64,000 nucleotides of DNA from positions 22,237,744 through 22,301,743 of the forward strand of contig OX637393.1 of NCBI GenBank assembly GCA_951799425.1, given 5' to 3'. A model generated the notes under the pieces. That model searched no databases. It was not told the DNA's origin and saw only the letters and a program-made list of their open reading frames with translations. Of the stretch, positions 9,693 through 61,838 are shown piece after piece. The position numbers and the translations under genes were made by a program. Each line of letters opens with the position of its first letter. Position 1 is the first letter of the stretch. Source of the stretch: Ilex aquifolium. Its lineage: Eukaryota; Streptophyta; Magnoliopsida; Aquifoliales; Aquifoliaceae.

Positions 9693-10056
9693 CGTTCGAA
9701 CGCCAACTCACGTTCGAACGTACACATTGCACTGTAGCAGACTCAACTGCTGAAGAGAAGGCGTGTTGCAATTAGGAAAAAAGACTGGAGCTCTGAAGTA
9801 CTTGAGTGTCACGTTCGAACGCCAACTCACGTTCGAACGTGCACTTGAGTTGATGGAAGACCAGACCACTGCAGAGAGTTGGAACTGAACTTCACAGAAG
9901 ACCACAGATCACTCGAGTGAAAGGGGTCAGAGCAAATCTGGCGTTCGAACGCCCTCAGTGCAAAAATAGAAGAAAACGTTCGAACGACAGTCAACGTTTG
10001 AATGCCCTCAGTGCAAAAACAGAAAGAACGTTCGAACGCCAACTCACGTTCGAACG
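9693..10056 (+). promoter_or_regulatory. CGTTCGAACG palindrome cluster in LTR A
   Basis: Copies of the 10-bp palindrome begin at 9693, 9711, 9812, 9830, 9942, 9977, 9995 (degenerate, CGTTTGAATG), 10029 and 10047. Four pairs (9693/9711, 9812/9830, 9977/9995, 10029/10047) have an identical 8-bp spacer, 18 bp centre to centre. The cluster ends about 90 bp before the TATA box. Fixed spacing of symmetric sites suggests paired binding of a dimeric protein; the protein is unknown. The matching cluster in the 3' LTR lies at about 22063-22428. Confidence 0.9.
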
Positions 10057-10148
10057 TTATCCACAGACTGGCAGCAGAGTTGTTAACTGTTCACTTGGAC
10101 TTGGGCGGCAAACACTATTCTTTCACCCCCCTGTCTCCTCCTCTTGCC

Positions 10149-10156
10149 TATAAATA
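10149..10156 (+). promoter_or_regulatory. TATA box of LTR A
   Basis: TATAAATA in the context CTCTTGCCTATAAATACTCC. The same context recurs in the 3' LTR (near 22520) and, in reverse, in B's LTR (38358-38365), which supports it as the core promoter of the genomic RNA. Confidence 0.85.
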
Positions 10157-11471
10157 CTCCCCTTGTTGGAGAGCTTGAAGGAGGCATAGTAGGAAGTAGA
10201 ATAGTTGATGGAGGCTTAGACTCCCACTCTCATTGTAGATTTAGCTCATTTTCCTTATGAAGTCTTTATTTTAGAGATTAGTTTGGCTTTAGTCCAACAT
10301 CTCTTGCTTGTTATAACAGTAGTTTTATGCTTATGCTTATGTTTATGCTTTCATTTCTCATGCATAGAAGAGAAATAACTCACATCTTGGTTGAGGAAGC
10401 AACCCTCCAATTCTTGGTTGAGGAAGCCACCCTCCAAATGTGACTAGCTTTCTTCTACTTTTATTGTTCATGCATTTCACTTCCATTGCTTGCGCTTCTT
10501 TCTTTCCTAGAAGAGTGAAACTCCTCCACTTTTCTAGAGCTTTATTAAAGCCGTGAAGGGTGGAACGTGATTCACCCATTCTTTGTGAAAGATTGGCTCC
10601 GCGTTTGTTGTTACTTTATCTTTTAAAGTTCTCCACTTGGAGGGATGAGCATCACTCACTTTTCTAGCTTTACCCAAGCCATGAAGAGTGAGTAGTTTCT
10701 CATTCACTCTTTAGTAAGAGGAGAAGGGCATGTATAATTTATCCGGGAATCATATTTGTGCAATGTTCTTTTATGCTTAACGTTTATTTCTTCTTGTTAT
10801 CGGATGATTGATTGCATCTAGCAAAGCTAAGGTACCTTGTATAACTGTGAGCTCTTTCTATGACACGGATGACTCCTGCATAGAAAGACTCATCAGTTCA
10901 AGGCAAGTACCCCGGCTAGATCCTCATGACTACCCTTCAATCTTCCCCCTTATTGTACTTCATTTAAAGAATGGAATATTAATATCATGATTTAATATCT
11001 TGTAGAAACACTTGCTTGTTTGTACACGGGTTAAGTCTCGGCACAGGCAATTCTTGTAAACTTCTAGAAAGACATCGGAATCATGTTCTTAATTCTCACA
11101 ATCCATCTTTATCTTCCGATTAACTTGCTGTTGACATGAGAGTTAATTGAGTTATCAAGCACAATTATGACAAACCGGATAATTGACTACATGTCCAGAT
11201 CCTTGCACTAAAGAGTGATTCTTTTTAATTAGCATTTATCTCCTATTTAGTTAAGAAAATCCTCTTGGAAAGAATCTTATATTCTGTCCAGCAAAACCCA
11301 TATCTCACAGCAAATCTAAAAGGTTACAATCAAAAGGTCTCTACCACTGCTTGCCTTAGAAATATCAACAAAAGTTCCCTGTGGATTCGACTCCGGACTC
11401 AAACAGGATTATTACTACAACTTGACTGCCTGCACTTGGGTGTACGCATTGGATCAAGCCATCAAGTTTTT

Positions 11472-11489
11472 TGGCGCCGTTGCCGGGGA
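11472..11489 (+). other. Primer-binding site of element A (tRNA-Asp type)
   Basis: TGGCGCCGTTGCCGGGGA, complementary to the 3' end (with CCA) of plant tRNA-Asp. It is 7 nt after the LTR end. tRNA-Asp priming is typical of the Athila lineage. Confidence 0.95.
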
Positions 11490-11582
11490 GCCTTTGAAAG
11501 GTGCTTTAAGGTAAAAGGTAAAAAGACCTTCAACATTGTGTATATTTTGGTTTACTGTAAATAACTTTGTTTTATTTTCTTT

Positions 11583-12488
11583 ATGACTGAGGGCACTCCT
11601 CACTTCCAAAATTTGCCAGCAGAATTGTGTGAGTTAGTGAATCAGCCTGAACCTAATTCACCTAGATCAGTAGCAGACTCTTGTGAGGGTAGTATGGCAA
11701 ATAATGAAAGAAATGGAGAAGTCCCTATGAGAGAGGAGGAGGTCCCTAACATTCGAACTTTGCGGGATTACTTGAATCCCACAAGAAATAGTGTCCCCTC
11801 TTGTTTTATTTTTCCTGAAAATGCTCCCCTCTTTACTGTAAAGCCGGGGACAGTGCAGTTATTGCCCGTGTTTCATGGATTGGATGCAGAAAATCCATAT
11901 CTGCATATAAAAGATTTCGAAGAAGTGTGTGGAACATTTCAAGACAATTCTGAATTGGCCAAAATGAAATTGTTTTCTTTCTCTTTGAGGGATAGAGCCA
12001 AACAATGGTTAAATTCTTTAAAGGCTTTTTCAATACCCAATTGGCAAGCACTGCAAAATGATTTTTTTAGAAAGTTTTTCCCTTTACACCGCACAAATGC
12101 ACTAAAAAGGCAAATCATGAATTTTGCGGTCAAAGAAGGAGAAACTTTTTATCAAAGTTGGGAGAGATTCAAAGATCTGCTCCAATCTTGCCCACATCAT
12201 GCTTTTGAAAATTGGACTTTGGTAGGATTTTTCTATGACTCCTTACCCTCTAGACTACGTCAGTTTGTCGAAATGATGGCCCAAGGAGAATTCATGGGAA
12301 AAAGTCCGGAGGAGGCATTCAATTTTTTCGACACCATATCTGACAGTTCTCAGATGTGGGACTCAGCCTCCCCTACCACTGTAGAAGCCAGACCATCTAA
12401 TTCCCAAGGAGGAAAATATGTCTTGAGAGAGGATGATGACTTGAGAGCAAAAATGTCCACATTGTCTCGAAAGCTCGAAGCTTTATAG
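11583..12488 (+). CDS. gag: gag of element A, ended by a nonsense codon
   Basis: 301 codons from ATG 11583. Structural polyprotein that forms the virus-like particle in the cytoplasm. The N-terminal ~95 residues are acidic/Asn-rich and include the conserved LRDYLNPTRNSVPSC segment. The gag core follows: LLPVFHGLDAENPYLHIKDF, FSFSLRDRAKQWLNSL, FFRKFFPLHRTNALKRQIMNF, and FYDSLPSRLRQFVEMM near residues 215-235. The frame stops at TAG 12486-12488. Pol continues in the same frame from the next codon, and in B the same codon is GAG (Glu), so the stop is most likely a G-to-T mutation in a gag-pol fusion ORF. The zinc knuckle lies beyond the stop, so this product would lack nucleocapsid. Regulated readthrough is a less likely alternative. 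Confidence 0.9.
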   Translation: MTEGTPHFQNLPAELCELVNQPEPNSPRSVADSCEGSMANNERNGEVPMREEEVPNIRTLRDYLNPTRNSVPSCFIFPENAPLFTVKPGTVQLLPVFHGLDAENPYLHIKDFEEVCGTFQDNSELAKMKLFSFSLRDRAKQWLNSLKAFSIPNWQALQNDFFRKFFPLHRTNALKRQIMNFAVKEGETFYQSWERFKDLLQSCPHHAFENWTLVGFFYDSLPSRLRQFVEMMAQGEFMGKSPEEAFNFFDTISDSSQMWDSASPTTVEARPSNSQGGKYVLREDDDLRAKMSTLSRKLEAL

Positions 12489-15400
12489 ATGAAGAAAGTT
12501 CATCAAGTTGATGTTAGCCCTTCCACTGAGCAAGTGTGTGGAATCTGTGCGCTAACAGGACACCCTACTGGGGAGTGTCCCACCATCCCAGCATTCAAAG
12601 AAGTCTTGTTGGAACAAACACATGCCGTTTCCAACTTCAACAAGCCCTACTCCAACCCATATTCTGAAACATACAATCCAGGGTGGCGAAATCACCCTAA
12701 CTTCAGTTGGAAGAACACACAACCAATACCCATGAACCAACAACAAGGACCATACCCACCACCTCAAGGACCTCCTGCATATCAACCATACCAACCACCA
12801 CAAAAGAGGAACCTTGAGGACACATTAAATCAGTTCATGCAAAGCCAAATGAATTATAACAATAATTCCACACAGGCTTTCACTGATTTCAAAACTCAGA
12901 CCACTCAATCTTTTGAGGATCTTAAAAGCCACATCCAAAAGTTAACTCAATCCATGGTCACACACGAAAAGGGAAAGTTTCCTGCTCAACCAAAGCAACC
13001 ACAAGGCCAATTCCATGTAGGGAACCCTTCAACAACAGGAAACACCCAAGACCAAGCCCAAGCTGTCACGACACTAAGAAGTGGCAAAGTGATTGACAAA
13101 ACAATCAGAGACATACTCATTCCCAAGCCAAGACCTGAGTCAAGCCCAGCCAATCCATCATATGAACCTGAACCAATTGAGAAAGACCCTGAGCCTGTGA
13201 TTGAACAAGAGTCAGAACCTTCTGAGAAAAAGGAACCTTCGTATCCCGTTCCGGCTCCATTTCCTCATCAACTCAGAACCAAACAGAAAGTGAAAAATCA
13301 GCCTGAAATTTACGAGCTTTTTAAGCAAGTAAATATCAACATCCCACTTCTGGATGCAATCAAACAAGTCCCGCCTTATGCCAAGTTTCTAAAAGACTTG
13401 TGCACAGTCAAGAGAAGCCAGAAAGTCCAAAAAAGAGTTTTCCTAACGGAACAAGCTAGTGCTCTTCTCCAACAGAAAACCCTTCCAAAATACAAAGACC
13501 CAGGGTGTCCGACTGTCTCATGTATCATTGAAAACTTCAGAATTGAACAAGCCTTGTTAGACCTTGGAGCCAGCGTTAATCTGCTACCCTACTCTGTCTA
13601 TCAACAGTTGGGTTTGGGTGAACTTAAACCCACTTGTGTCACACTCCAGTTGGCTGACAGATCTATCAAAACCCCCAGAGGGATTGTTGAAGATGTGCTT
13701 GTCCAAGTAGATAGTTTTGTCTTCCCTGTTGACTTCATTGTTCTGGATACTCAACCAGCAATAAATTCGGAGAACCAAATTCCCGTCATTCTTGGTCGAC
13801 CATTCCTAGCAATTTCCAATGCTTTAATCAATTGCAGGAATGGAGTCATGAAATTAAATTTTGGGAATATGACTCTCGAAATGAACATTTTCAATATTGC
13901 TAAACATCCAGAAGAGGAAAAGGAAGAAAGGGAAGTAAACTCCATAGAATCTTTGATACAGGAACATCTGGATGATACATTCTGTGAGGATCCCACTGAA
14001 TTATCTCTGTTAGAACTCATCTCATCAGAAATAACAGATGATGACCCAAATCCCCCAAGTGACCCTACTCATACTGTTGAGACCTGGGCACTCAAATTCG
14101 AAGAAATTTCACCAAGTGGCACAAAGCCAGTCTCATCAAGTGTTAGCCCACCAAAGCCTGAATTGAAACCTCTCCCATCCGACCTCAAATATGCATTCAT
14201 AGGAGAGAATGAGTCATACCCAGTGGTAATTTCATCTAAACTCATAGACTTTCAAGAGTCTAAATTGCTTGAAGTTCTTCGAAGTCATAAAAGTACCATT
14301 GCATGGACCATCGCTGACTTGAAAGGTATAAGCCCGTTAATCTGCAATCATGCCATATACCTTGAAGAGGATTCAAAACCCTCTCGTCAAATGCAGCGAC
14401 GACTGAACCCTTACATGAAGGAAGTTGTGAGAATTGAGGTACTCAAACTCTTAGATGCAGGGATAATCTTCCCTATCTCAGATAGTAAATGGGTCAGTCC
14501 AACCCAAGTTGTGCCAAAAAAATCTGGGGTCACAGTGGTCAAAAATGATGCAAATGAACTAGTACCAACTCGAGTCGTCACAGGATGGCGAATGTGCATT
14601 GATTATCGAAAACTCAATTTGGTCACTAGAAAAGATCATTTTCCTCTCCCATTTCTTGACCAAGTCCTAGAGAGAATTGCAGGCCATGCATTTTACTGTT
14701 TCTTGGATGGATATTCAGGGTATAACCAAATTGAGATAGCCCTAGATGATCAGGAGAAAACAACCTTCACATGCCCCTCTGGCCCCAGTGCATTCAAAAG
14801 GATGCCATTTGGACTTTGTAACGCTCCTGCAACATTCCAAAGATGTATGCTAAGCTTGTTCAGTGATATGGTTGAAAAATTTTTGGAAGTATTTATGGAT
14901 GACTTCTCTGTCTATGGTGATTCCTTCGATTTGTGTTTAACCAATCTGGAGAAAGTACTGATCAGATGTAAGGAAGCCAACCTAGTGCTCAATTGGGAAA
15001 AATGCCATTTTATGGTAACACGGGGCATTGTTCTTGGTCACATCGTGTCGTCTGAAGGCATGAAAGTTGACAAGGCAAAAATTGATTTGATTGAAAATTT
15101 GCCTGCCCCTAAGACTGTAAAGGATGTTCGATCATTCCTAGGACATGCAGGGTTCTACAGGAGATTCATAAAAGATTTCAGTACCATAGCAAAACCAATG
15201 TGCCACCTCCTAAGTCAGGATGTAATATTTGATTGGAATGAAGCATGCCAAAAAGCCTTTGATAAGCTAAAAGACATGTTAATTTATGCACCAATAATGC
15301 AACCTCCTGACTGGAATCTTCCTTTTGAACTAATGTGTGATGCAAGTGATTTTGCTGTAGGTACTGTATTGGGACAAAGAAAAGATAAGAAACCCCATGT

Positions 15401-17126
15401 GATTTACTATGCAAGCAAAACTTTGAATGATGCCCAAATGAATTATTCAACAACTGAGAAAGAATTGCTTGCTGTAGTTTTTTCACTAGAAAAATTCCGT
15501 TCTTATCTTGTTGGTTCTTCTGTTACTGTATTCACTGACCATGCAGCTCTAAATTTTTTGCTCACAAAGAAGGACGCCAAACCAAGACTCTTGAGATGGA
15601 TACTTTTGCTCCAAGAGTTTGATCTTGTCATTAAGGACAAGAAAGGTGTCAAGAATGTGGTGGCAGATCATCTGTCCAGACTAACCTTTGAATTTCATGA
15701 GGATGGACTGCCAATCAATGAGAAATTCCCCGATGAACAACTGTTCATGATTGATAATACACCATGGTATGCAGACATTGCTAACTTTCTTGCTACTGGT
15801 ACACTCCCTCCATCTTTTACCATGTTGGACAAAAAGAAATTTCTGAGGGAGGTTCGTAACTTCTTTTGGGAGGATCCTTACGTATTCAAGTACTGTAAAG
15901 ATCAAATCCTAAGACGTTGCATCCCTGCTCATGAAAGTAGCCATGTAATAACATTTTGTCATTCTGAAGCATGCGGTGGCCACTTTTCATCAAGAAAAAC
16001 AGCTGCAAAAATATTACAGTGTGGATTTTACTGGCTCACACTTTTCAAAGATGTCCATGCCTTTTGTTTAACTTGTGATAGGTGTCAAAGGTTGGGAAAC
16101 ATTTCTAAAAGAAATATGATGCCCTTAAACCCCATTCTGGTAATTGAAATTTTTGACTGTTGGGGCATCGATTTTATGGGACCATTTCCCCATTCCTTTG
16201 GCTATCTATACATTTTAGTGGCTGTAGACTATGTATCCAAATGGGTTGAAGCAATTCCATGCCGAAACAATGATCACAAAACAGTGATCAAATTTTTGAA
16301 AGAAAATATTTTGTCCCGGTTTGGAATTCCGAAATCAATCATAAGCGATGGGGGTGCTCATTTTTGCAATTGTCCCTTCTGGAATTTAATGAAAAAATAC
16401 TTGATTTTTCACAAAATTGCAACCCCTTATCACCCACAGACCAGTGGACAAGCTGAGTTAGCTAATCGGGAGATCAAATTAATTTTGGAAAAAACGGTGA
16501 ATCCAGATCGCAAAGATTGGTCGTTAAGACTAACTGATGCGCTCTGGGCATACCGAACTGCTTTTAAAACAATTTTGGGCATGTCTCCTTATCGATTAGT
16601 CTATGGAAAGCCATGTAACTTGCCTGTGGAATTGGAACCTAGGGCATACTGGGCCATTAAAGCAATGAATTTTGACTTAGACAAGGCTGGGCTAACAAGG
16701 AAACTTCAAATAAATGAATTGGAGGAATTGAGAAATGAAGCATATGAAAATGCTAAGATTGCTAAAACCATGATGAAAATCTTTCATGATAAACACATTG
16801 TGCGGAAATCTTTTGAGTCATCTCAAAAAGTCTTGCTATTTAATTCAAGACTCCGCCTCTTCGCTGGTAAGTTAAAATCAAGATGGATTGGGCCTTACAT
16901 TGTGAAAAAGGTGTTTGAACACGGAGCAGTTGAAGTGGAAAACCCAGCAAACGGTAATAATTTTACTATTAATGGTCAGAGGTTAAAACCATTTTTGGAG
17001 GATTTTGTTAGAAATGTGGAAACCACTCTTTTAATGGAACCAGAGTACTCCTCCCAAATTCGCCCCTGCCGACACTCCAGTGGATCGGGTCAGGAAATAT
17101 CTACTCCAACCCGACCCACTGGATAA
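12489..17126 (+). CDS. pol: pol of element A (nucleocapsid knuckle, protease, RT, RNase H, integrase)
   Basis: 1545 codons with no internal stop. In order: zinc knuckle C17-X2-C20-X4-H25-X4-C30; a proline-rich linker with [19 protein letters not shown]; aspartic protease with D358-L-G-A; reverse transcriptase with [14 protein letters not shown] and FMDD at about 802-805; RNase H with CDASDF (D about 951), [11 protein letters not shown] and FTDHAA (D about 1017); integrase with an H-X6-H...C-X2-C zinc site (about 1158-1200), catalytic D in GIDFMGPF, D in ISDGGAHF and, exactly 35 residues on, E in QAELANRE; and a C-terminal GPY/F-type module ([12 protein letters not shown]). It copies genomic RNA into DNA and inserts it. 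Oddity: the RT segment [11 protein letters not shown] differs from [11 protein letters not shown] in C and D at three nearby residues. Starts as read only because of the TAG upstream; native translation would come from gag. Confidence 0.95.
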
Positions 17127-17785
17127 AGGCGCCTACTTTTTCCCCAGCCGCCGCAGTTGGCCCCCCCCCCCCTCACTTCTTCTTCTTCTTTTCTTCTTCT
17201 TCCTTCTGTTAGTCTTCGAGTCTCTGTTACCCGAGAAAACACCCATGACCACACACTCCACAAACACGATATTTTGCTTCATGTTTTGCATTTTAATCCT
17301 ATATTTGCTCACGGGTGTTCTTCTCATGTTCGCACTCACACATAAGGATTTTCAGCCTACCCGAAATCCAGATCTGTGCACAGATGAGTAATTTTTGGTG
17401 TTTTTATTTGTAGGTCCCAGCGGTGAAAAGATCTCTACCATTCAACCTCGTCTCCACACGCCATGAACCGGTAAAATCGAAACATTGCGGACAATGTTCA
17501 GTTTAGGTTGGGGGGGTATGATCAGTTCATCAGTTTCAGTTTATTTTCGTTCATAATTTTCGCAAATTTTTTTTATTTTATTTTTTATTGTCGTTGTTGA
17601 TCATGTTTGAACATTGATTGTATAAATTGATTATGCTTATGAATCAGCTTCAATCGTCTTTGTGACTGGCAGACGTTAAAGAACCAGATAGTGAGTCTTA
17701 AAATTTAGCAATCATGGATGTAAATCTTTTTTGGTTTAGCCTAGGAGTCTTACGTACTTTTCCATCTGATGTACATACTATGATC
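17127..17785 (+). other. Post-pol region of A with pyrimidine tract and internal PPT-like tract
   Basis: No credible gene. 17161-17205 is a C-run followed by CTT repeats; B keeps the same pyrimidine tract at its equivalent place (43725-43765, reverse). At 17484-17516 a GGACAATG box is followed by TTTAGGTTGGGGGGG, which resembles the true polypurine tract next to the LTR. The box-plus-tract recurs after pol in B, C and D. Small ORFs at 17080-17391 are in the pyrimidine tract and are not convincing. Confidence 0.7.
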
Positions 17786-18124
17786 ATGAGAAAAGCAAGA
17801 TTAGTAAGGAAGGCTGAAATCAAAGAAAAATAAGTGAAACCCCTCTGTGGCAGAAGTAGCTTTGCCAAACGCCGTCGTGCAAAAAGGCTTGGTGCCTGTA
17901 AACAGTGTGGCAGATACGTTCACGAAAAAAGGTACAACCAGTGTTCTGAACCAATTTCCGGTCGCGCACTTGATCGATTAGACTGGATAGTGAATGGGCT
18001 GAGTAAGGATTACCCTGATACGACATGCTATTCCGGTACTATGCTTAACCGATTTGTGAGAGAGGAAGTTGGGAGAGTTACTGGTTGTCCATTTTACACA
18101 GACACAGAGGGAGACTCAGATTAG
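17786..18124 (+). CDS. Small Arg/Cys-rich ORF between pol and ORF3 (element A)
   Basis: I do not recognise this product. An ATG at 17786 opens a basic 15-codon peptide (MRKARLVRKAEIKEK) ended by TAA 17831-17833; the same frame then runs open from 17834 to 18124. The open part is basic (KRRRAKRLGA) and holds a C-X2-C-X4-H-X6-C pattern (CKQCGRYVH...C), like a stretched zinc knuckle. It then has a block shared with B, ISGRALDRLDWIVNGLSKDY and LNRFVREE. B has both the block and the TAA at the same codon, so the stop was present in their common ancestor. It may be a short protein started at a non-ATG codon, an exon of a spliced message, or a decayed gene. The conservation across two insertions of one family is weak evidence of function. 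Confidence 0.4.
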
Positions 18125-18393
18125 ATAATTTTCTGTAGGAAATGTGTACTTTTGTTGGGGGAGTGAATGCCAAAGGTCCGAATTTGTTGTAAAAAGTGTA
18201 AAAATATTTTTGTATAAATTTCTTTTTGACTGAAATGAAAATATGGGCCGAGTAAGGAATATCCCAAAATACCAACTTGAAGCGTGGGTAGGGGTTCATC
18301 CTGAGACGCCTTAGTTTTTGAATTAAATTTGTGTGTTTTGTCTTCTTTGATTGTATATAGTGCAATAGAGAAAAATTTTAATTTTTGATTCAA

Positions 18394-18713
18394 CGTTCGA
18401 ACGCCAGGTAACGTTCGAACGTTGACTGCTTACAGTACTCAGCCTCTGATGAAGTTTCTGCAGAAACACAAAAGTACTGGGAGCTCAGTCCATTCGAACG
18501 CCAATAGACCGTTCGAACGAGATTAACGTTCGAACGCCAATAGACCGTTCGAACGAAGAGTACTTACAGTACTTTGGCCTCTGACAGAAACACAAAAGTA
18601 CTGGGAGCTCACCACGTTCGAACGTCAAACCACGTTCGAACGATCTGTTTAAAATCCTTCTACCCACGTTCGAACGTCACAAACGTTTGAACGTTACAAC
18701 TCAGGTTATAAAA
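18394..18713 (+). promoter_or_regulatory. Internal palindrome cluster and TATA box before ORF3 (element A)
   Basis: Ten copies of the family word begin at 18394, 18412, 18491 (CATTCGAACG), 18510, 18527, 18546, 18615, 18633, 18667 and 18684 (CGTTTGAACG). They form pairs with 7-9-bp spacers, the same layout as the LTR. TATAAAA follows at 18707-18713, and one more copy (18920-18929) touches the ORF3 start codon. The region is not a copy of the LTR; only the motif, spacing and TATA are shared. I infer a second promoter that makes a separate ORF3 mRNA. Confidence 0.75.
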
Positions 18714-18931
18714 GTCTGGTTCGTCGTTTTCAGCCAAAATCCCCAATTTTTTTCAAAACCCTAGAATTCATTTTCACTCCACATACCTCAACTTACCCTC
18801 ATTCCCCAAGAATACCCAAATTCAACCTTCCCTAACTCGTCCCCACATCAAAATCATCAGTCCCAGACCTAGAACCCTAAGTTCCAGTACTTTTCAAGAC
18901 CCTCCCAAATCAAAACCCACGTTCGAACGCC

Positions 18932-20051
18932 ATGCCAAGGATGAAACTCCCTGCCAGGCGTGCTCCACCAGTGAATCAAGACCCAAACATTGTAGAAGAA
19001 ATGATTGAAGAAAGAGGAGGAAGGCAAAGGACAAAGACATATGATAGAACCAGATTTCCTAATGCCTTAAAGGCTGAGAGGTATGAGAATTTTTACCATA
19101 AGCATGCAATTGTCTGTGAGAGAGATGTCGTAATCGATGACTTTGCTGGGATTGGTATAAGGCAGGAGATGGAGATGAGGGAGTGGGTCTGGTATTTGAG
19201 AAATGGTGGAGATGCCGTTTTTGACTTAGTGCGGGAGTTTTACTCCAACGCTGAGATCATCAACGGCGCAATCTGGACATATGTTAGGGGTACCCACATT
19301 GACGTGGATGAAGCATGCATTGTAGAAATAAGGGAGGAAATACCCCGAGTGCAAAACCCTACCTACCCACCAAAGAAAGATGTAGCAATGAATGTGGTAG
19401 GAAAGGAATTGACGGGGATAGCTGACTTTTCATGGGCGGGGAGGAGATTTTTGAAGCAAGGGGAGCTCACCGACAAGTATAAAATGATGAATTTGATTGC
19501 GGTGTCCAACTTCGCTCCCGTAGGAAGAAAGAATGAGATTTTACCCGACATGGCCCGACTTCTGTATGCCATTGGCAAGGGACATACCATTGACCTCCCC
19601 TCTCTCATCCTGAGTGAAATGAAGAAGGGGTGTGATGTAAAGAGGAGTGCACTCCCTTTTGGTACTTTGGTGACTGAAATGTGCACGGAGCATGGGGTGA
19701 GGGTGAAGCCTGAGATGGAGATCCAAAAGCCAATGGGGCCACTAAACAAGGCTTCCTTCCGGAGAAGCCAAAGTCATAGTGGCGGCCCAGCGGGCAAGGC
19801 AAGAAGAGCCCCCGGCCCATGGAGTGGATGAGGTACAAGAGGAGCTAGATGAGATGGAGAGAGAGATAGAGAGAGAGATGGAGGAAGAGGAAAATCAGCC
19901 AGCAGGTGAAGGCACTAGCACCAGCACCAGCACCCGACGCTCCTTACGGGACATCATGCTTAGCATTGAAGCTAAGCAGGATGAGATCCTTAGGTATCTG
20001 AGGGGTGGACATGGTGGACATGGCAGAGCTAGTGGACAAGGAGGAGAGTGA
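18932..20051 (+). CDS. ORF3 of element A ('putative plant transposon protein' type), frameshifted near the 3' end
   Basis: ATG 18932 opens 299 codons (to 19831); a second frame (19779-20051) carries the natural C-terminus. Comparison with B, where the same segment is continuous (GGPAARQE...), shows a one-base gain in the G-rich run near 19789-19791. N-terminus is basic (MPRMKLPARRAPP). The central domain has FYHKHAIVCERDVVIDDF, then LVREFYSNAEI...YVRGTHIDVDE (about residues 100-132), then LTDKYKMMNLIAVSNF. This matches the widespread plant domain annotated as putative plant transposon protein; its biochemical role is not established. The C-terminus has an acidic Glu-rich helix and SLRDIMLSIEAKQDEILRYL, likely helical, then Gly/His. 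I see no signal peptide or membrane span, so nothing here supports an envelope role. Confidence 0.8.
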
Positions 20052-21842
20052 GAGAGAGGGATTTCTATTTCTGTTCTTGTTTTTTATGTGTGTTTAAAGT
20101 GCTTCTTTTTTTATGAATTTCTTCCTTGATAGTTGTAAGTTTTTGTGTGGTTGTGAATGAATTGAACCGTTGATGTTAAAAGATGATATTTTGAAATGAA
20201 TGGTTCCATTTATCACTTTTATTTGTTTTAATGCATTTGTAGATTTAGCATAAAAATTAAAAGGTGAATGGAACAAATGTGGATGTAAGAATGTTTGCTA
20301 GAGTAAATATGCACATGATCGGTTTGACACCTCCATTTATCAACCGAGACTTAAAACCACATTTCTTGAAAAGATTGGTATTCTCTCTATACTTAAATTG
20401 TCATATGTACATCGATATTTGTTATTTTAAAGGTACAGGAGGATCTGACTCGAAAATGGAATTGGTATATAACCAATACCCCCTGGAAAACCCGACATAC
20501 ACAGTGGAGATAACAAAGAACACCAGGGTGAGTTTCGAACCTAACAATGGTTTCGAGAGACAATCAATGTTTACTCAAGTAAATTATTTTCAAATCTCAA
20601 TGTTTGAATGATCTCATTAACCTTGCTTTAATTGACGCACTTAAAAGTGATCTATTGACATATCCTACATGGAACCATCGCATACGACACATACATGTGC
20701 ACATGCTTGAGAAATGATCTTAGGCCATCTTTGATATAATATTGAGCCTTAGACCTTTCTTTGAAAAAAAATTTATCCTTCGTTAGCCATGTTTGAGCCA
20801 TCAATGTATAAAGTTTTCTTTGATAAACCTACATGATTACCAATCCACAGGAAAACATACTTGACATACCTTGGCTATCTAATTTTCTTACATCCTCTTT
20901 GTAAGATGATACAGAAAAAGGAAAAGAAAAAGGAGCATTCGAGATTATCATCTAAGAAGAGTTGATTGGAACAATTGAAACAAAACAGATGCAAAAAGGC
21001 AAGAACTTGCCAAGAAAGTGAAAAAATGAGAAAAATGAAAGAAAGAAATGTCATCTCTCGGCAAAATATCAAGAAGTTAGAAAAAGGTGTGCTACAATAC
21101 GCAAACAGCAGATAGCTTTTGAAAATCCCTGACGTCGTTTCGTTAGCCACTGACCTCTGGCCACGCTACAACCCATGAAAAGCCCTAATTGATCTCAAGT
21201 ATGTTACATGCATGTGTTTTTAATCACAATTGGGATATGGTAAATAGCATTCCTTTTAATTGCATTAATATTCTTTCATGAGATTATGCCAAACATAAGT
21301 AGTTGCTTCTTTAAAATTTCACTCCTTTCCCAAATTGTGCATGTGATTTTTCGATTGGCCATCTTCTGATCACATGATCTGTGAGAAACAAGTCACTATA
21401 ATCAGAGTGAACCTTTACTGAGAGTATACTACGTGAGGTTTGTGAAATCGAAATTATCCATGGAAGGTGATAAAAGGGAGTATTTGTTACATAACAATTC
21501 CTGTTGCTTGAATGATCATTCCTACTGCGTTGAGAATTTCAAATACCAATGTAACAAATGATAATTTTTGCATAGAATGAATACCTTAAATAAGGGCGTG
21601 TGAGACATAAGTCAAAAATTGAAAATCTGGTGTCCCAACGACCATGATGCTAATTTACTTTAGTCAGCATTCTCATATGCACATCTGTTCGACTGAGGTT
21701 TGTGGGTAGCCTCTCTGGAAACCCTCACGAGACAACACTCGTCCGCTAGGGTAAACCTAGTGGTTCAACGGCTTGTTGCATAAGCTAAATGCAACCGGAT
21801 GACCTACGAAAATGGCATTAGGAGTAGAATTTTCTTTTTCGT
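20052..21842 (+). other. Conserved non-coding block between ORF3 and 3' LTR (element A)
   Basis: No credible coding region in 1.8 kb. Long segments are alignable by eye with B (39041-40865, reverse), I (1-1277) and D (28376-30222, reverse), although the LTRs of those families are unrelated in sequence. Landmarks: 'gatcttaggcca' at 20715, 'gctatctaattttctta' at 20873, 'ctctggccacgctacaaccc' near 21150, 'catgagattatgcc' near 21277, and 'ggcttgttgcataagctaaa' near 21770. Sequence conservation with no ORF suggests a structural RNA or cis-acting role. Confidence 0.65.
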
Positions 21843-21878
21843 ATTACTAGAGACTAGCAATATTTAGGTTAGGGAGTG
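21843..21878 (+). other. Hairpin and polypurine tract of element A
   Basis: ATTACTAG-AGA-CTAGCAAT (21843-21861) forms a hairpin with one A/C mismatch. Then comes TTTAGGTTAGGGAGTG and the LTR. It primes plus-strand synthesis by analogy with other LTR elements. Confidence 0.8.
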
Positions 21879-26123: not shown

Positions 26124-26159
26124 CACCCCCCAACTTGCGATTTGCTAGTCCCTAGCAAA
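26124..26159 (-). other. Hairpin and polypurine tract of element D
   Basis: On the reverse strand, TTTGCTAG-GGA-CTAGCAAA (26141-26159, 8-bp perfect arms), then TTGGGGGGTG against the LTR. Compared with I (TTTACTAG/CTAGTAAA) the fourth pair changes from A-T to G-C on both sides, a compensatory change. Confidence 0.85.
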
Positions 26160-26450
26160 TATAATTTCCAATCCCAAACCAATATGCACACATACATTCA
26201 TAAAATCTCAACAAGGTAAAATCAGTAAAATCATATTGCAAATATGGTTTTAACTTTGTACAACAACAATCAACCCATTGTGGTATTTCATAGACAAGTT
26301 CATTACAATGTGGGCATAATCACAACAAAAAAAAAAAAAATGGCCAGAACTTAAGGACACTTCTACAGGCCGACACCAAAAAGAGAGTAACCCTAATTCT
26401 CTTCTCCACCCTTACCAGACACAACAAACAAAAACAACCAAATCCTGCTT
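26160..26450 (-). other. Short region between D ORF3 and hairpin
   Basis: About 290 bp, A/T-rich with an A-run at 26327-26340. No coding potential. Unlike A and B, the conserved non-coding block is not here; in D it lies on the other side of ORF3. Confidence 0.6.
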
Positions 26451-27767: not shown

Positions 27768-28164
27768 GAGCGAGAAAAACACACCAAACCCCAAAGCGAT
27801 TATGAACCACCACCATATGTTTTGAAGGGCCCCCCATGCGTCCATGGTTGCCTCATTCAATCGAGCCATGGTAGTTGAGTAGGGTGATTTGGAGAGGGGA
27901 TGGAAAAGTGGTGAACTTTGGGGGGGAAATAAACCTTAGGGTTTTGCAAGAAATTCTTGGGATTTCGGCTCAAAAGTTCCAAGATTCACCCTTAATCAAG
28001 GGAAAATAGGAGGCAAAGATGATTGGAGAGGAATTTCGAAGCTCAGGAAGGAGGAGGAGGAGAGGAGAGAGTTTGGGGGAGTCGGATTTGAGAAAGGCAA
28101 TGAAAGGGTTTCCGAAAAAATTAGATTTAAAACCCTTGTTTTTTTTTTGGGTTTCAGACTCGAT

Positions 28165-28375
28165 CTTCCGGAAGGTCGATGTGAACCTTCCGGAAGGTTT
28201 TACTCACTGCCTAATTTAAAACAGTCAGTAGGTAAGATCTTCCGGAAGGTCTATGTGAACCTTCCGGAAGGTTTCACTCACTGGACAATCAAGCACTTCC
28301 AGTAGGTAAAATCTTCCGGAAGGTCGATGTCGACCTTCCGGAAGGTTTTACTTACTGGGCAAAACCTTCCGGAAG
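28165..28375 (-). promoter_or_regulatory. Internal CTTCCGGAAG cluster before ORF3 (element D)
   Basis: Seven copies begin at 28165, 28187, 28239, 28261, 28313, 28335 and 28366. The first six form three pairs, each exactly 22 bp apart. The cluster lies 5' of ORF3 on its own strand, the same placement as in A, B and C. A TATA-like TTTTAAATC lies downstream near 28122-28130; it is not convincing. Between the cluster and ORF3 is about 300 bp of leader-like, non-coding DNA (27870-28164). Confidence 0.8.
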
Positions 28376-30222: not shown

Positions 30223-30250
30223 ACCCCCCAACTAGAACCATGCATTGTCC
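30223..30250 (-). other. PPT-like tract after pol (element D)
   Basis: Reverse strand: GGACAATGCATGG then TTCTAGTTGGGGGGTGA. Same box and tract as after pol in A, B and C. Confidence 0.65.
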
Positions 30251-35892: not shown

Positions 35893-35896
35893 AAAA

Positions 35897-38005: not shown

Positions 38006-38010
38006 CACGG

Positions 38011-42011: not shown

Positions 42012-42216
42012 GTTTTTGGTTTGTGAGGTTTTTGAAAGTTTTGATTTCTTTGAAAAATGGGAGTTTTTGATATAGGAATAGTCTTGGGAGGGTTGATTTT
42101 AGGTAGAAATGGGGAATGAGGGGTGCTTTGTGGTCTGGATAGTGAAAAGGGGTTCTAGGGTTTGGGGGATTTTGAAGATTTTGGGGAGATTTGAAATGGG
42201 GAAGACGATCCAGGTT

Positions 42217-49481: not shown

Positions 49482-49487
49482 AAAACT

Positions 49488-50032: not shown

Positions 50033-51103
50033 TGATTAAGGCCGAATAATCACACTTATTATTAGAAAAGATTGATTTTTTAATTGAAAAAGTGTGATAA
50101 ATATAAGAGTTTATCCAAGTTTGGGTGTTATGCTATTAAATGTTGATTTGTGATAATTTGCAGGTCAAAAGCATAATTTTGGGGTCAAATTATGGAAAGA
50201 CCAAGCGTAGCTCAAAGGAAAACACACTGGATAACGCGTCCGGACGGAAGAAGAGTACGCGTCCGGACGCAATTGGCAGAAAATTGATAAACGGAGGAAG
50301 GACCATTCTGAAAGTTGCGTCCGGACGGTTGAGAGAGGTGCGTCCGAACGCGTGTCAAGCTTCTGCTGCCGAATTTAGAATCCTAATGGGATGCAATCTC
50401 TTTCGAATGTACTTTAGAAATACAAACCTAGGACCTTGTAAAAGGGGAGTTCTTTTTCATTAATCTGTTTCGAGATCCTTTTACCATGTCTGGCTAGAAG
50501 GCTAAGCTAGGGCTAAGGGAAAACCTCTCGACGGAGTACGGTATTTTTATTGACTCTTGTACTTAAGGATTTATGTTATTGTGTTAATTTAATCCCTAAT
50601 CTTTTAGCAAAGTGTTTATGCTGTATAAACTCTTGAGTTGTTGTGCCAAGTACATCGATTGCTTGATTTTACCTGCGTGTAAATCACTGGTTATTCCACG
50701 CTGGAAGGATTAACATTATTTCATAAAATAATATGATTGACTGATTATTCAAGTTCCTGGTAGTCTTTTGATTATAACCTTTGGACTTATCACTTGATTT
50801 GTTAATCGGATTAACTGACATTTAATTCCTCTTTCAAGTCAAGCTTTGAGTCTTTAACTATTATTGTATGAAGTTGAGAGGGAGTACCTGATGCTCTAGT
50901 ATTTCTTTTATTACTGTTTTAATTACAAAAATCACTTTTCTCCAATTAACAATTTTCCAAACAAATATTTTTCCTTTCAAATTACTTTTATTGTTCGTGT
51001 GATTGTTTCTTGTTACAATTCCTCGTGGGATCGACCTCGGACTTCCGAGATTATATTACTCTGCTCAACCTGCGCTTGGGTTTACACTTTTAAAGTTGAA
51101 GCA
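50033..51103 (+). repeat. 5' LTR of element C
   Basis: TGATTAAGGC...GAAGCA, 1071 bp, ending 6 nt before the primer-binding site. The four palindromes are at 50237-50350. No strong TATA box follows; the closest is TTTAGAAATAC near 50412. Confidence 0.85.
50237..50350 (+). promoter_or_regulatory. CGTCCGGACG palindrome cluster in LTR C
   Basis: Four copies at 50237, 50260, 50318 and 50341 (CGTCCGAACG, degenerate). Both pairs are exactly 23 bp apart. Several extend to the 12-bp palindrome GCGTCCGGACGC. Confidence 0.85.
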
Positions 51104-51109
51104 AGTTTT

Positions 51110-56502: not shown

Positions 56503-58624
56503 TGTAACACCCCGCATTTTCTTTTATATATGCATATAGATATATAGATATAGCAAATAATGGTTGTAAAGATGTGGATAGGGGTATTGAAGTGTGTTTG
56601 AACTTTGTAAATTTGAAAAGTAAAGATTTAAAATGTTAATGAAAATCATAGTTGAAATTTAGTTTTAGTGAGTGAAAATATAAAATGTTAGGTCCTATAA
56701 CTTGTATTAGATAGGTTTGGTGTATAAATATGTGTTGGAGAGGTTTGTGATGGATGTGGTTAGTTTTGGAATGGATTGGAAATGGAAAACAAAAGAAATA
56801 GGCAAAACTGGGTAAATGATACCGGTACTGGGTACCGGTACTGAATGGTACCGGTACTGAGTACCGGTACCCCGATTCCAGAAGGTTTCTTGTACCGGTA
56901 CTGGGTACCGGTACTGAATGGTACCGGTACTACCGAAACCAGACTGTTTATTTTAAGTCGCGAACAAGCCGATTTTTCCTCCACTATAAATACATTTTGT
57001 CACCTCCTTAGCCTTCATTACACCACTCCAAACCCTAGAAAACATAAGAGAGGAAGAGAGAAAGAGAGAAACACAAGATCAAGAGAAAACAAGAGATTGA
57101 AGAGTTGATTCAAGATCAAAGCCCTAATTTTTCCAAGAACATTAAAGTAGGGGATTTCTTCCTATGTTCTTACATTGAGGCTAGGGCTAAATTATATGTA
57201 TTCTTTTGGTTTAAAATCCTATGTACTTGCTATTAAATACTTGATTTCTTGTCTTCTTGCATTTATTGCCATGTTTTAAACATTTTGGTAGTTGGGTAAC
57301 TATTAAAGCTATCTTTTGCACTCTCAAACCCTAGTTTTAAGAAAAATGAATCTTTCTTCTTTACATTTCCTTTGTTCTCACCATCAAAACCTTAGTGCTT
57401 GATATTGTACAACCAAATGATGTTTATGGTGATCTCTTGCTCTTTTTCTTCAATTATGCTATGGTACAAATAGTGAAATTTGGGGATTTCTTGTGAATTG
57501 AGAAATGTTTGTAATGATCTCTCTTGTATGATTGTTGTGATGGACTTGGATTGCCTTCGAGCATTGTCGTGGAGTGTTAGAGGTTAGTCTATCCCGGTGG
57601 GGGTGAGATGGTTGCCTAACACTTGTAGTGGGTGGTTATTTGGTAATAACCACCACTATTGTTCACTGGAGTTCGAACGAGGGGTGGTATACCTTTCCTG
57701 GGAAGGGACTCGTCACTGCCATTGGGATGGTAGACGCCTCTTCCTAAAGTACTTGTGATTGTGATGGTGATTGGTGAACTAGGTATAAGTCGTTGGGTAG
57801 ATTCATGGGAAGCAATCAATATACATGAGAACATGAGATTATTAGTATGGTTACGGAATGGTTTCCAAGAAGTGCTTGTGGAGGTATGGGAATCCACAAG
57901 GACCTGTTGGAAATGGTTATGGTGATAATTGTGACTGAGCTTTACGGTTCATTTAAATTATTGCGAACATTTAAACTTGAGATCTATTTAAAATATCCTG
58001 TTTTTCCTTCAAAATGGTATATATGCTATTTGTGAAAATGAGACCAACCGTTTTATATGCTTTTCTAAACCTTGTTTGAGTTTGGGAAGATTTTGCTACA
58101 GAGCTTCTTGCTCATCCCCTACAATTAATATTTTTCAGATTTGGCTTTAGAGGAGGAGCTCGGTGTGAATGAGCCGGGCCTTGGGGAAGCTTCCTTGGAG
58201 GGGTACCTAGATCCCGAATGGGACATCTAGAGATATAGCTTATTTTGTTCTAGACTAGGAGATTTATTTCTGAACAATGTAAAGTCTAGATTCTTTTGAA
58301 ACTCCGCTGCGATATATTCATGTAATTCTTTTGGGGAATGTAATTGCCATATCTGGCCTATTCTTTTGTGATAATGTTAAGGATATTATAGATGGTAAAT
58401 AGAAATTCTATTGTTATTGGATGGTTAAATGGACCCTGTGTGGTCAAGTTAATAGAATTGCACAGGTGGTGATTTTTGGGTGGAGCTTCCTGTACAAAGG
58501 AGACTCTGCCCAAATTTTGTTAAAATTAAGAAGGTCTCTTATTTGATGGATATATATTTAGTGCTCTCATGATGTGAATGTTTTAGAATGTAATGTCGTC
58601 CAGGGTGGTATTTGGGGTGTTACA
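56503..58624. repeat. Solo LTR H (2.1 kb, TGTAACACCCC...GGGGTGTTACA)
   Basis: Bounded by CCTTT duplications (56498-56502 and 58625-58629). It begins TG and ends CA with 11-bp inverted ends. It contains palindromes and a TATA box and has no gene, primer-binding site or polypurine tract. The 5-bp duplication and TG...CA ends favour a solo LTR left by recombination. Ends of this kind are frequent in other Ty3/gypsy groups such as chromoviruses, so it is probably from a different lineage. The TATA box orientation suggests the LTR reads on the + strand. Confidence 0.8.
56820..56992 (+). promoter_or_regulatory. TACCGGTA palindrome cluster and TATA box in solo LTR H
   Basis: TACCGGTA begins at 56820, 56833, 56849, 56862, 56893, 56906 and 56922; spacing alternates 13/16/13, then 13/16. 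Most copies extend to GTACCGGTAC. TATAAATA follows at 56985-56992. Same order as in the Athila-type LTRs, with another word and spacing. Confidence 0.8.
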
Positions 58625-58869: not shown

Positions 58870-59212
58870 TCCATCTCTAACCATTTTCTGTACATTTATG
58901 TATATTAGTGTTGTTCTTTTGTTTTTGTTTATTTTTTCACAGATACATGAGCACATTATCCGAGCATCCGGTATGTCTTCGTAACCCTTATTTAATATTA
59001 CATTGCGTGTTGTTACATGGAGGACAATGCAAACTCTTGAGTGGGGGGGTGAAGCATACATGTTTGATTATTTGATTGACCAATTCAGTGTGCCTGTATG
59101 TGCATGTATCTGTCTTCAGTGTGCCTGTATGTGCATGTATCAGTCTTTTTTTAAAAAAAAAAAATGTGTGAAAATTTTTCTAAGTATGGAAGAAGAACCA
59201 CACTGGACTCCG
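58870..59212 (+). other. Post-pol region of element C with PPT-like tract
   Basis: No gene. GGACAATG and GAGTGGGGGGGTGA at 59022-59053 repeat the post-pol pattern of A, B and D. A 31-bp tandem duplication (59084-59110 and 59115-59141) and a T/A homopolymer stretch follow. Confidence 0.65.
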
Positions 59213-59485
59213 CGTCCGGACGCATGAATTATAGTATAAAATCTTCTGGAGTTTGCGTCCGGACGGGAAAGAATAGGCTGAACTTACTGGAACACGCGTC
59301 CGGACGGTGATTTGTCATGCGTCCGGACGGGAAAGCTAACCGTTTCAAATTCAGAGTACGCGTCCGGACAGAAACACCCCATGCGTCCGGACGCGTGTCA
59401 TTCAAAGCTTATTAATGCCGGTAGTTGAGCCGCGTCCGGACGGAAACACCCCATGCGTCCGGACGCGTGTGCGAATCTATAAATA
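59213..59485 (+). promoter_or_regulatory. Internal CGTCCGGACG cluster and TATA box before ORF3 (element C)
   Basis: Eight copies begin at 59213, 59256, 59297, 59320, 59361 (CGTCCGGACA), 59384, 59433 and 59456. Three pairs (59297/59320, 59361/59384, 59433/59456) are exactly 23 bp apart, the same as in C's LTR. TATAAATA is at 59478-59485, about 95 bp before the ORF3 ATG. This is the clearest promoter-like layout of an internal cluster in the window. Confidence 0.85.
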
Positions 59486-59579
59486 GAGGCCTTGTCAGTT
59501 AACTTGTTTTGCGCGTTTCTAAACCGAATTTCAAAGAACTCCCACCCATTCCACTTCTCTCTTCTCTATTCTAACAACC

Positions 59580-60370
59580 ATGGCACCACCTAGAGCTTCC
59601 ACCACAAAGAGAGCCCGATCGAGCACCCAAGAAGAGGAGGACACCACATTTGACCCGATACGTTTCCAAATACTAGAGGAGCGGGTAAGATTCGAGAAAT
59701 ACTACGCTTCCAAACCCTTTGTCTGTGAGAGGAAGATTGAACTCAAGGATTTCTCTCGATTAGGAATCCAAGAGATCATCACATCTAGAGGGTGGGCCGA
59801 GTTTATGGGTAGAGATTGGCCTTGCATTCCCATCCTGGCAAGGGAGTTCTATAGCAACGCTGATGACCTCGGGAATGGTCAGCTAACCACCTATGTCCGA
59901 GGTAAGCACATCAGTGTAGATGCCACAGCCATTGCCCAATTGACTGGAATGACTCAAGCCCGGGTGGCTATCCCTGAATACCCCCAGAATTTTGGTGGTG
60001 ATGAGGTGGGTAGAGAGTTAATGGGTGATCAAGATTTTGTGTGGACGGACGGAGTGAAATTCCTTCAGTAGGGAGACTTGACCAATAAGTACAAGATTCT
60101 CAATCTGATTTCAGTCTCCAACATTTTTCCTTTGCTGAGGAATAATCACATATACCCTGACCGAGCCCGACTTCTGTATGCCATAGGCACTGGCAAGACC
60201 ATAGACCTCCCCTCCCTTATTTTCTCATAAATGCGTAGGGTCATTGGTGACCCTAAAAAGCCATCTTTCCCATTTCCCGGTTTGGCTACCGCATTCTGTG
60301 AAAAGGCGGGGGTGGTGATTGACGCCACTGATGAGTGGGTTTTATACCTACGAATTGAGTATTTTCGGCT
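59580..60370 (+). pseudogene. ORF3 of element C, two stops, cut by element E
   Basis: ATG 59580; N-terminus basic and Ser/Thr-rich (MAPPRASTTKRARSS). Domain parts: KYYASKPFVCERKIELKDF, LAREFYSNADD...YVRGKHISVDA, LLYAIGTGKTIDLPS. TAG 60069-60071 follows FLQ where A has a KQG segment, and a TAA at about 60228-60230 follows LIFS where A has Glu. The frame is lost around 60370, where E's LTR is inferred to begin. Same family as A's and B's ORF3 but clearly diverged. Confidence 0.85.
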
Positions 60371-61838
60371 TGATGAAAGTGCAAGTTTTCAATTATTTTA
60401 TGTTTACTTTTTATTATTTTGTGTGTTTTGATGTTATTTTGTAGGAATCATCATTTGGAAGGAAATAAGGATGTGGAGGTTTAAAAGTGAAAGAAATCAA
60501 AGAGGTATTGGTGTTTGTTTTCAAAGGCACCTCGGTTTTCCTCCATTTTGACCATGATCGACTCAGAATCTGGAAAAGTGAAAAACATGAAAGTTGTAGA
60601 TCTGGATGTCTTCTATATTGTGTCAAAATTTTAGCTCAATCCAACGGTTGGATCAAAATTTATGGTGATTTTACGAAAACTGTCCAGAGCTGAAGAAAAA
60701 GGGAGGCGCGCCTAGGCGCCCAAAACCAGCGCCCAGGCGCCAACATGCTGCCTTACCAGCGCCTAGGCGCCCAATACCAGCGCCCCAGCGCGCCCCTACT
60801 GAAATGGACGCGAATTATGACTCCTTTTTGACCCGAAATTGGATTATAATGACTCCTATGTGCCTAGGGTTTGATGGGGATATAAATATGATGACTTTGG
60901 GGGCTGAAAATAAAATATAGATACATATAGAGAAGAAGACCAAAGGATTGATAGAAAATTGAAGGCAAGAATTGGAGAAATCCACACGAAGAAAATCGGG
61001 ATTGAAGGCTAGAGAGGGATTGAAGCTTGCAACTAAGTTTTCATTCTTTTTCCTTACTTTTATTTCTTAATTTTCTAAGATGTTTATTACTTTGAGAAGG
61101 ATGTTTTTCAATTACATTATGAACTAAGTTTTTATTAAGATTGCAACGGAACCTAATGTCTAGTTAAATTTACCTACTCTCGTTTCTAGTTCTTGTTGAT
61201 CATATATGAGTTGTTTGTCATATTTTGTGTTTAATATATAATTGTTTGGCCATCAATTAATTTGATAACCTAGATGAAATTGGGAGATGAATTCTAGGTT
61301 CAGATCTGAATATGATGACATGCGTCTGGTTAATTCTTCTTCGGATTGAATTGCTGGGTTTGTGTATAGGATAGGAATATACATATATGCCGTGTGTAAC
61401 TTGTATGAGAATTTGAACTTAATGAATCTATTCCAACTTATTTTGCATAGGAATATAGCAATTTAATTGGGATAGATATGCTTATCTTACTATCGGAAGA
61501 GGTTTGATAAATACTTTTGAAGTCTCAGTTAACAACTTATTTTGATCAATTAACTGGGAAGAGAGTGGGGAGATTTATACGAAGCATTAGGGGAAGTTGT
61601 AATCTTAACTTCTTCTATCTGTTAAATTCAATCTTTGATTATTAAGTTTAGATTTAGTTTAATTTATTCATTTCATAGTTCAATTCCAATTGTTTAAATA
61701 AAATTGAATTGATATAAAGTTAGTACTTGAAATTTATTATTAATAATTCTCCGTGGGAACGATACTTTACTTATCACTTTATTACTTGTTGATCGTGTAT
61801 ACTTGCACGTAAATTGTCAATACCAAACTCGGACAACA
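60371..61838 (+). repeat. 5' LTR of element E
   Basis: TGATGAAAGT...GGACAACA, about 1468 bp. Includes GC-rich palindromes at 60704-60795 and TATAAATA at 60881-60888. 'tccgtgggaacga' near 61750 is the counterpart of the segment preceding the LTR end in the other families. The rest is A/T-rich without genes. Confidence 0.8.
60704..60888 (+). promoter_or_regulatory. GCGCCTAGGCGC palindromes and TATA box in LTR E
   Basis: Four sites centred near 60713, 60734, 60764 and 60786: GCGCCTAGGCGCC twice (first and third) and the degenerate forms GCGCCCAGGCGCC and GCGCCCCAGCGCG. Centre spacings are about 21, 30 and 22 bp. TATAAATA is at 60881-60888. The order and pairing match the other LTRs; the word is different. 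Confidence 0.75.

Follow-up and report, generated by a model that had tools for sequence, protein, structure and literature searches.

Palindromic word arrays as an exchangeable promoter code in Ty3/gypsy retrotransposons of Ilex aquifolium

Long terminal repeats (LTRs) in one stretch of the Ilex aquifolium genome carry clusters of short palindromes, which raises the question of where exactly these symmetric words stand and what reads them. The stretch (contig OX637393.1, positions 22,237,744-22,301,743; 64,000 nt, hereafter the window) was studied together with further stretches of the same genome, numbered with the prefix L, which comprise 200 kb adjoining the window and parts of other chromosomes; genome-wide counts cover 800 Mb. 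The original prediction held that each retrotransposon family has its own word at its own fixed spacing in its LTRs, recognised by a family-matched factor. The promoter code found in these Ty3/gypsy elements is real, strongly patterned and exchangeable. Athila-type elements carry two arrays with matching words, the arrays do not mix words, and the words are exchanged and shared between families.

One Word at Two Promoters

In Athila-type elements, one palindromic word occurs in two places, namely in the U3 part of the LTR and directly upstream of the third open reading frame (ORF3), the “env-like” gene matching PF20167. The lineage name is a putative assignment based on layout. Elements A (9508-23834) and D (24015-38005, minus strand) have gag followed by pol with protease, reverse transcriptase, RNase H and integrase (the Ty3 domain order, by Pfam) and the additional PF20167 frame between pol and the 3′ LTR. 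Both are bounded by TG...CA LTR pairs and 5 bp target site duplications (CATGC in A, CACGG in D). B is an older relative of A, and C is interrupted by a solo LTR (56503-58624) and by element E (60329-67310). The features of the four elements are as follows.

A, 5′ LTR: 9508-11464, plus strand; 98.8% identical to 21879-23834, CATGC on both sides of the element
A, U3 array of the 5′ LTR: 9693-10056, plus strand; 8 CGTTCGAACG, TATA 93 bp after the array
A, ORF3-promoter array: 18394-18676, plus strand; 8 CGTTCGAACG, TATAAA 31 bp after, shuffle maximum 1; a ninth CGTTCGAACG at 18920 lies within the ORF start
A, ORF3, stop to stop: 18881-19831, plus strand; PF20167 (Transposase_32), 75.3 bits, cut-off 45
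A, 3′ LTR: 21879-23834, plus strand; 7 CGTTCGAACG at 22064-22427, second member of the LTR pair
D, 3′ LTR: 24015-26123, minus strand; U3 array of 15 CTTCCGGAAG at 25349-25875, 99.7% identical to 35897-38005, CACGG
D, ORF3, stop to stop: 26967-27935, minus strand; PF20167, 87.3 bits
D, ORF3-promoter array: 28165-28375, minus strand; 7 CTTCCGGAAG, internal, shuffle-tested
D, 5′ LTR: 35897-38005, minus strand; 15 CTTCCGGAAG at 37231-37757, member of the LTR pair
B, LTR part cut by D: 38006-39010, minus strand; 5 exact CGTTCGAACG at 38460-38842, 78% identical to the A LTR
B, ORF3 in two reading-frame pieces: 40869-42020, minus strand; PF20167 by Pfam match
B, ORF3-promoter array: 42236-42534, minus strand; 9 CGTTCGAACG, internal, shuffle-tested
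C, 5′ LTR: 50033-51103, plus strand; 3 CGTCCGGACG at 50237-50327, 99.0% identical to 69477-70547
C, ORF3-promoter array: 59213-59465, plus strand; 7 CGTCCGGACG, TATAAA 13 bp after
C, start of ORF3, cut by the E LTR: 59523-60328, plus strand; PF20167, 38.8 bits, as a fragment below the cut-off of 45

The four internal arrays precede the ORF3 of A, B, D and C, and each repeats the word of its own LTR. The palindromes had been placed in LTRs throughout, which is correct for the U3 arrays and not for these four; the array of C in particular had been read as an LTR named I. The 3′ LTR of C (69477-70547 in window numbering) lies beyond the window, in L005, and also holds 3 copies of CGTCCGGACG. The layout of the C promoter array recurs in L034, upstream of an ORF3 of 377 amino acids (aa).

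The U3 word equals the ORF3-promoter word in six of the six word families and in all 11 elements that are readable at both places. The shared word is CGTTCGAACG in A, B, L005, L003/L004 and L025/L026, CTTCCGGAAG in D, CGTCCGGACG in C, GTACCGGTAC in element H (L017/L018), CTACCGGTAG in L029 and L030 and GCGCCTAGG(C/T)GC in L038/L040. The LTR nature of the U3 array follows from an LTR pair or from homology to a paired LTR in 10 of the 11, and in L029 from an identical array 12 kb away. L007 has an ORF3 and an LTR pair and an array in neither place, and the L008 ORF3 has no array upstream. In L038/L040, four degenerate GCGCCTAGGCGC sites stand upstream of the PF20167 frame, and an LTR 90% identical to that of E, with GCGCCTAGGTGC sites, follows 1.5-2 kb beyond it. 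When arrays were picked by coordinates alone, an ORF3 was present at two of the three places tried; L031, guessed from its spacing to be an ORF3 promoter, holds no ORF3. The GTACCGGTAC array upstream of the L014 ORF3 was likewise set aside as a match, since it belongs to an inserted LTR; the U3 of L014 itself has CTACCGGTAG.

The two arrays of an element were compared after masking the words. In H and L029 one array is a nearly unchanged copy of the other. Spacer similarity is weak in D (p = 0.002, in a stretch of 27 columns) and in B (p = 0.03), and no homology between spacers was detectable in A (p = 0.23), C (p = 0.16) and L030 (p = 0.38), where the word is nevertheless the same. Copying between the two places therefore occurs, yet the word match outlasts the divergence of the spacers. 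As the words at U3 and at the ORF3 promoter stay matched although the word is replaceable (see below), one trans-acting factor would have to serve both. Such a shared factor finds its best argument in the array upstream of ORF3, which the original prediction had missed.

Abundance, Exclusiveness and Conservation of the Words

The window contains 38, 40, 10, 6 and 2 exact copies of the five words originally named, CGTTCGAACG, CTTCCGGAAG, CGTCCGGACG, GTACCGGTAC and GCGCCTAGGCGC, respectively. Their frequency was tested with dinucleotide-preserving shuffles (300 for each of 16 regions), the statistic being the commonest palindrome of the region. No shuffle contained more than 2 copies, whereas the 12 named arrays or LTRs apart from E have 3-15. 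The control regions (two pol regions and one flank) were without a repeated word. The E LTR, with 2 exact copies, falls inside the shuffle range in the exact-word test; if up to 3 mismatches to its 12-mer are allowed, 4 sites are counted, whereas none of 100 shuffles gave more than 2. Genome-wide counts of short-spaced pairs are 10,515 for CGTTCGAACG, 12,333 for CTTCCGGAAG and 10,893 for CTACCGGTAG, a word absent from the window; the same patterns written backward gave 0, 1 and 0 pairs. The shuffles and the backward-pattern controls rule out a chance origin of the arrays.

Arrays consist of a single word. No mixed pair occurred among neighbouring words at most 100 bp apart: all 75 pairs of the window, all 165 of 304 kb selected without regard to the word and all 192 of the full 335 kb consist of the same word twice; the exclusiveness applies to these 304-335 kb. 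The expectation of one unmixed word per element family, clustered near promoters, thus held. The words have a common frame with a central CG, mostly CCGG. In L010, five CCTTATAAGG palindromes spaced by 45-56 bp were also seen at 9694-9897.

Centre-to-centre spacing is preferred rather than fixed. The favoured distances are 17-19 bp for CGTTCGAACG, 21-22 and 30-32 bp for CTTCCGGAAG, 23 bp for CGTCCGGACG, 12-13 and 16 bp for GTACCGGTAC and 42-43 bp for CTACCGGTAG, and the spacing is partly a product of tandem duplication, the D array being built of a 138 bp tandem unit. TATAAA or TATATA lies within 150 bp downstream in 6 of the 12 arrays checked (A U3, A ORF3 promoter, B U3, C ORF3 promoter, solo LTR and E) and was absent from that distance after those of the B ORF3 promoter, C U3, D U3, D ORF3 promoter and two arrays of element H. 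The TATA box announced for five cases is therefore present in A, the U3 of B, E, the solo LTR and the C promoter, and missing at the ORF3 promoter of B.

The words are also better conserved than their surroundings. Among four A-type ORF3-promoter arrays, words exceeded spacers in 12 of 12 directed comparisons; from A to B, 79 of 80 word positions were conserved against 172 of 209 spacer positions (Fisher p = 5e-5), despite the words being CpG-rich. In U3 arrays the same difference was found for A-B and A-L005.

Exchange of Arrays between Elements

Element H is related to D. Their proteins are 96.8% identical in gag (373 aa) and 95.8% (1261 aa) and 98.5% (130 aa) in pol, and their DNA is 90% identical up to window position 28540 and again 88.6% identical from 25025 down to 24015. 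The interval between contains the ORF3 promoter, ORF3 (49% aa identity over 272 aa) and U3, and retains similarity only at the polypurine tract region and in one stretch of ORF3. Here the word differs at both arrays, CTTCCGGAAG in D and GTACCGGTAC in H.

Block exchanged between D and H: 25026-28540, minus strand; U3, ORF3 and ORF3 promoter, flanks 88.6% (R-U5) and 90% (pol side) identical; the edge is at 25203 when the other LTR of H is compared

Word change without ORF3 was seen in three further settings. In the first, the LTR flanks of two gag-pol elements are homologous (77%, 70% and 85%), and the array holds 6 GTACCGGTAC in one element and 10 CTTCCGGAAG in the other. One LTR family has CGTTCGAACG in L006 and L008, GTACCGGTAC in L010 and the solo LTR, or CTACCGGTAG in L027, each array having homologous sequence on its upstream side and a TATA region, likewise homologous, on the other; the downstream part of L027 is cut by another LTR, and that comparison was made via a second copy. 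A 170 bp frame precedes different words: GCGCCTAGGCGC in E, GTACCGGTAC in L009, L010 and L014, and CTTCCGGAAG in L015, L031 and, in degenerate form, L018. In five of these seven, the same stretch comes after the array. The word array is thus exchangeable between families as a cassette. The view of one family, one word of its own for each LTR was abandoned, as L009/L010/L014, the solo LTR and H have GTACCGGTAC in common and other Ty3/gypsy elements carry the same words in their LTRs.

What Reads the Words

The arrays may be promoter-proximal operator clusters. Because the words are symmetric, a protein binding as a symmetric dimer could recognise the 10 bp word, with neighbouring dimers at preferred distances. 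Each Athila-type element would present the same word before the U3 promoter, which would drive the genomic RNA, and before a separate internal promoter, which would drive ORF3. The most likely factor would be the ORF3 product of the same family, transactivating its own promoter and U3; this would create a self-amplifying switch, able to outrun silencing, and elements without ORF3 but with the same words would borrow the factor.

It is likely that a dimeric word-specific factor reads the palindrome code, and ORF3 as that factor is a good guess and the leading candidate; binding, activation and the role of ORF3 as binder are what we infer. For the combined proposal, operator clusters for a dimeric word-specific activator common to both promoters with ORF3 as the leading candidate, we consider the chances to be even. 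A bolder form, in which ORF3 is a word-specific transactivator and not an envelope, word and ORF3 make up a lock-and-key cassette and ORF3-less elements copy the lock, is put forward tentatively, its chances being short of even. The paired dimer sites expected at the outset gain from the conservation of the words and the unmixed arrays, which fit a word-specific factor; a factor matched to the family is not supported.

Several observations weigh against ORF3 in this role. The ORF3 proteins have no known DNA-binding domain in Pfam and no relative in PDB, and the AlphaFold2 model (10 sequences; pLDDT 45.9) was too poor to use. The exchanged block of D and H is contiguous, and linkage alone could explain the joint change of word and ORF3. 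Words occur also in LTRs of Ty3/gypsy elements without ORF3, among them gag-pol elements without an ORF3 match (L012/L013 with GTACCGGTAC, L016/L017 with CTTCCGGAAG). In the U3 pair B-L005, words are no better conserved than spacers. The ORF3s of L029 and L030, both with CTACCGGTAG, are 47-55% identical, no closer than to the ORF3 of D (50-55%), which has a different word.

PF20167 genes at large point the same way. Eight loci were surveyed, one per score and length class, from 150 scored matches (6661 candidates), which is not a random sample, and at least 3 exact words stood upstream in one of the eight types (L034). L038 has a degenerate array of the E word, L036 one exact and one near CGTCCGGACG, L035 and L039 two exact TGATCGATCA each, L033 one degenerate site, and L032 and L037 are without any word. 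As several sampled types lack arrays, ORF3 does not need them. The correlation between ORF3 distance and word distance is method-dependent: r = 0.63 for six families (8 of 720 permutations), 0.54 for five families by alignment (14 of 120), and 0.71 by a cruder method (4 of 120) that misread the C query and assumed an identity of 0.2 for C-H.

Some features of the proteins themselves count in favour of ORF3. The ORF3s of H (387 aa) and L029 (411 aa) combine a basic N-terminus with an acidic end (charge -12 and -16 in the last 60 residues), and between the two is a segment that looks amphipathic by eye; long hydrophobic stretches are absent (KD19 maximum 1.44 and 1.29). By the same index, the ORF3s of A, H and L029 and the piece from C, which was read in the wrong frame, reach maxima of 0.93-1.44, and that of D reaches 1.98; the frame of D has a hydrophobic stretch also upstream of the Met used.

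The divergent PF20167 frames of L035 and L039 have their two exact TGATCGATCA 200 bp apart, and TGATCGATCA is possibly a further word. Among the 150 matches listed, about a dozen or more copies of the L034 type (CGTCCGGACG; 377 aa) on several contigs share a score of 111.5 bits, which suggests a recently active family.

A small Cys/Arg-rich ORF of about 108-110 aa lies between pol and the ORF3 promoter (window 17786-18109, L007 6053-6382, L008 8952-9281 and L025); that of A has an in-frame stop. It was rejected as the word factor: it was found in A, B and the array-less L007/L008, and not in D, C or H.

Alternative Explanations

The best-surviving alternative is that host transcription factors bind the words. 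These factors might belong to a single plant family that has diversified, and elements would acquire sites for different ones. The match between U3 and ORF3 promoter would then come from array copying and a common cue, and ORF3 would do something else (env-like, chaperone or anti-silencing). The common CG-centred frame, the words of the gag-pol elements without an ORF3 match and of the L006/L008, L010, L027 and solo LTR family, and the arrays of H and L029, where one place has visibly been copied to the other, speak in its favour. We presume a likeness of the TCCGGA core of two words to LBD/LOB sites, on which a literature search gave no paper. A host factor alone does not predict the single-word arrays (165 of 165), nor that ORF3 changes with the word in D and H. 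We regard the host factor as a serious possibility whose probability stays below one half.

It is improbable that the arrays act in the transcript, as hairpins, in dimerisation or packaging, or as a source of small RNAs. Any two copies of a palindrome are inverted repeats as well, and small RNAs are drawn to palindrome-rich LTR regions of Sireviruses (Bousios 2016, as summarised in PMC10760457). Against this, in the 6 of 12 cases with a visible TATA box the array lies upstream of it, the internal copy precedes ORF3, and a single word, judged by its length, is probably too short for a stable hairpin. That the words have no function and spread neutrally by tandem duplication and copying between repeats, as the tandem unit of D and the copied blocks of H and L029 might suggest, is very improbable in view of the same word amid unrelated spacers in A, C and L030, the better conservation of words in all 12 ORF3-promoter comparisons and the replacement of words at the same site inside homologous frames.

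Other Elements of the Window

The remaining features that carry words are given below.

Solo LTR inside the pol of C: 56503-58624, plus strand; target site duplication CCTTT, 6 GTACCGGTAC at 56832-56930, TATAAA 55 bp after, relatives in L006, L008, L010 and L027
E, 5′ LTR: 60329-61838, plus strand; GCGCCTAGGCGC at 60708 and 60759 and two degenerate copies, LTR pair 99.3% identical
LTR remnant F: 3218-3399, plus strand; 3 exact CTTCCGGAAG, shuffle maximum 1

The first of these had been described as an LTR array of an element named H; the array is indeed in an LTR, and the LTR is solitary. The 3′ LTR of E (65802-67310) lies beyond the window. E extends into L005, measures about 5.5 kb between LTR starts and contains gag and part of protease without reverse transcriptase or ORF3. 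By appearance, E is a relative of the L038/L040 type that has lost internal parts and retained its word. At C1:12987470-12995796, CGTTCGAACG arrays extend over about 8.3 kb from first to last and, by their spacers, follow the order LTR, ORF3 promoter, LTR; from these coordinates, this may be an element that has ORF3 and lacks pol.

Significance and Comparison with Known Systems

The function of the env-like ORF in plant LTR elements is described as unproven and controversial (PMC2829016, PMC7264820). As each of the six words goes with an ORF3 type, predictions on ORF3-word pairing are at hand. If ORF3 binds, it would be a second kind of transposon-encoded, family-specific regulator beside VANC, residing in elements that occupy much of the Ilex genome, and one could read an arms race in the locks passed from lineage to lineage. 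Should a host factor be the binder, the words would be a common entry point used by several Ty3/gypsy lineages.

The likeness to VANC drawn in the original prediction is one of logic. In the VANDAL elements of Arabidopsis, short motifs are tandemly arrayed in noncoding transposon parts and thought to co-evolve with the encoded protein (PMC5735166, PMC10398659). VANDALs, however, are DNA transposons and VANC has DUF1985 and DUF287, whereas PF20167 is the only Pfam match of the ORF3 proteins. The Ilex motifs are, moreover, palindromes at promoters, known here from the DNA sequence alone.

A transactivator acting on two promoters is known from foamy viruses, in which Tas binds both; its sites are not known to be family-wide palindrome arrays. 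Foamy viruses have an LTR promoter and an internal one, from which an accessory gene close to the 3′ end is expressed (PMC7828637), and the parallel with the Ilex elements would be one of layout. Modular recombination has been described for Arabidopsis Athila, with LTR, gag, pol and env modules swapped between distant families (PMC2410132). The string “palindrom” has 0 occurrences in the text of that study, while the unit exchanged in Ilex carries the promoter word. A literature search, with most subscription journals outside its scope, gave no paper on palindromes in Athila or Tekay elements and none on a plant element-encoded transactivator.

The closest precedent is found in the Sireviruses. 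Element-specific palindromic repeats (RM boxes), most with a CGG-CCG core, have been described in 13 elements; they precede the TATA box of the LTR in many copies and recur ahead of the ENV-like gene (Bousios 2010, PMC2829016). According to the same paper, the internal copies are lacking in ENV-less members, the repeats are termed Sirevirus-specific and no common binding factor was found. Sireviruses belong to Ty1/copia; the Ilex elements are Ty3/gypsy by domain order and have a PF20167 ORF3, so that they are similar in working and not members of that group. Unlike the RM boxes, the Ilex arrays are exchanged as a cassette within homologous frames, together with ORF3 in D and H, and are common to non-Athila elements. 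What is new relative to the Sirevirus precedent is the presence of palindrome arrays in Ty3/gypsy elements, as exchangeable cassettes.

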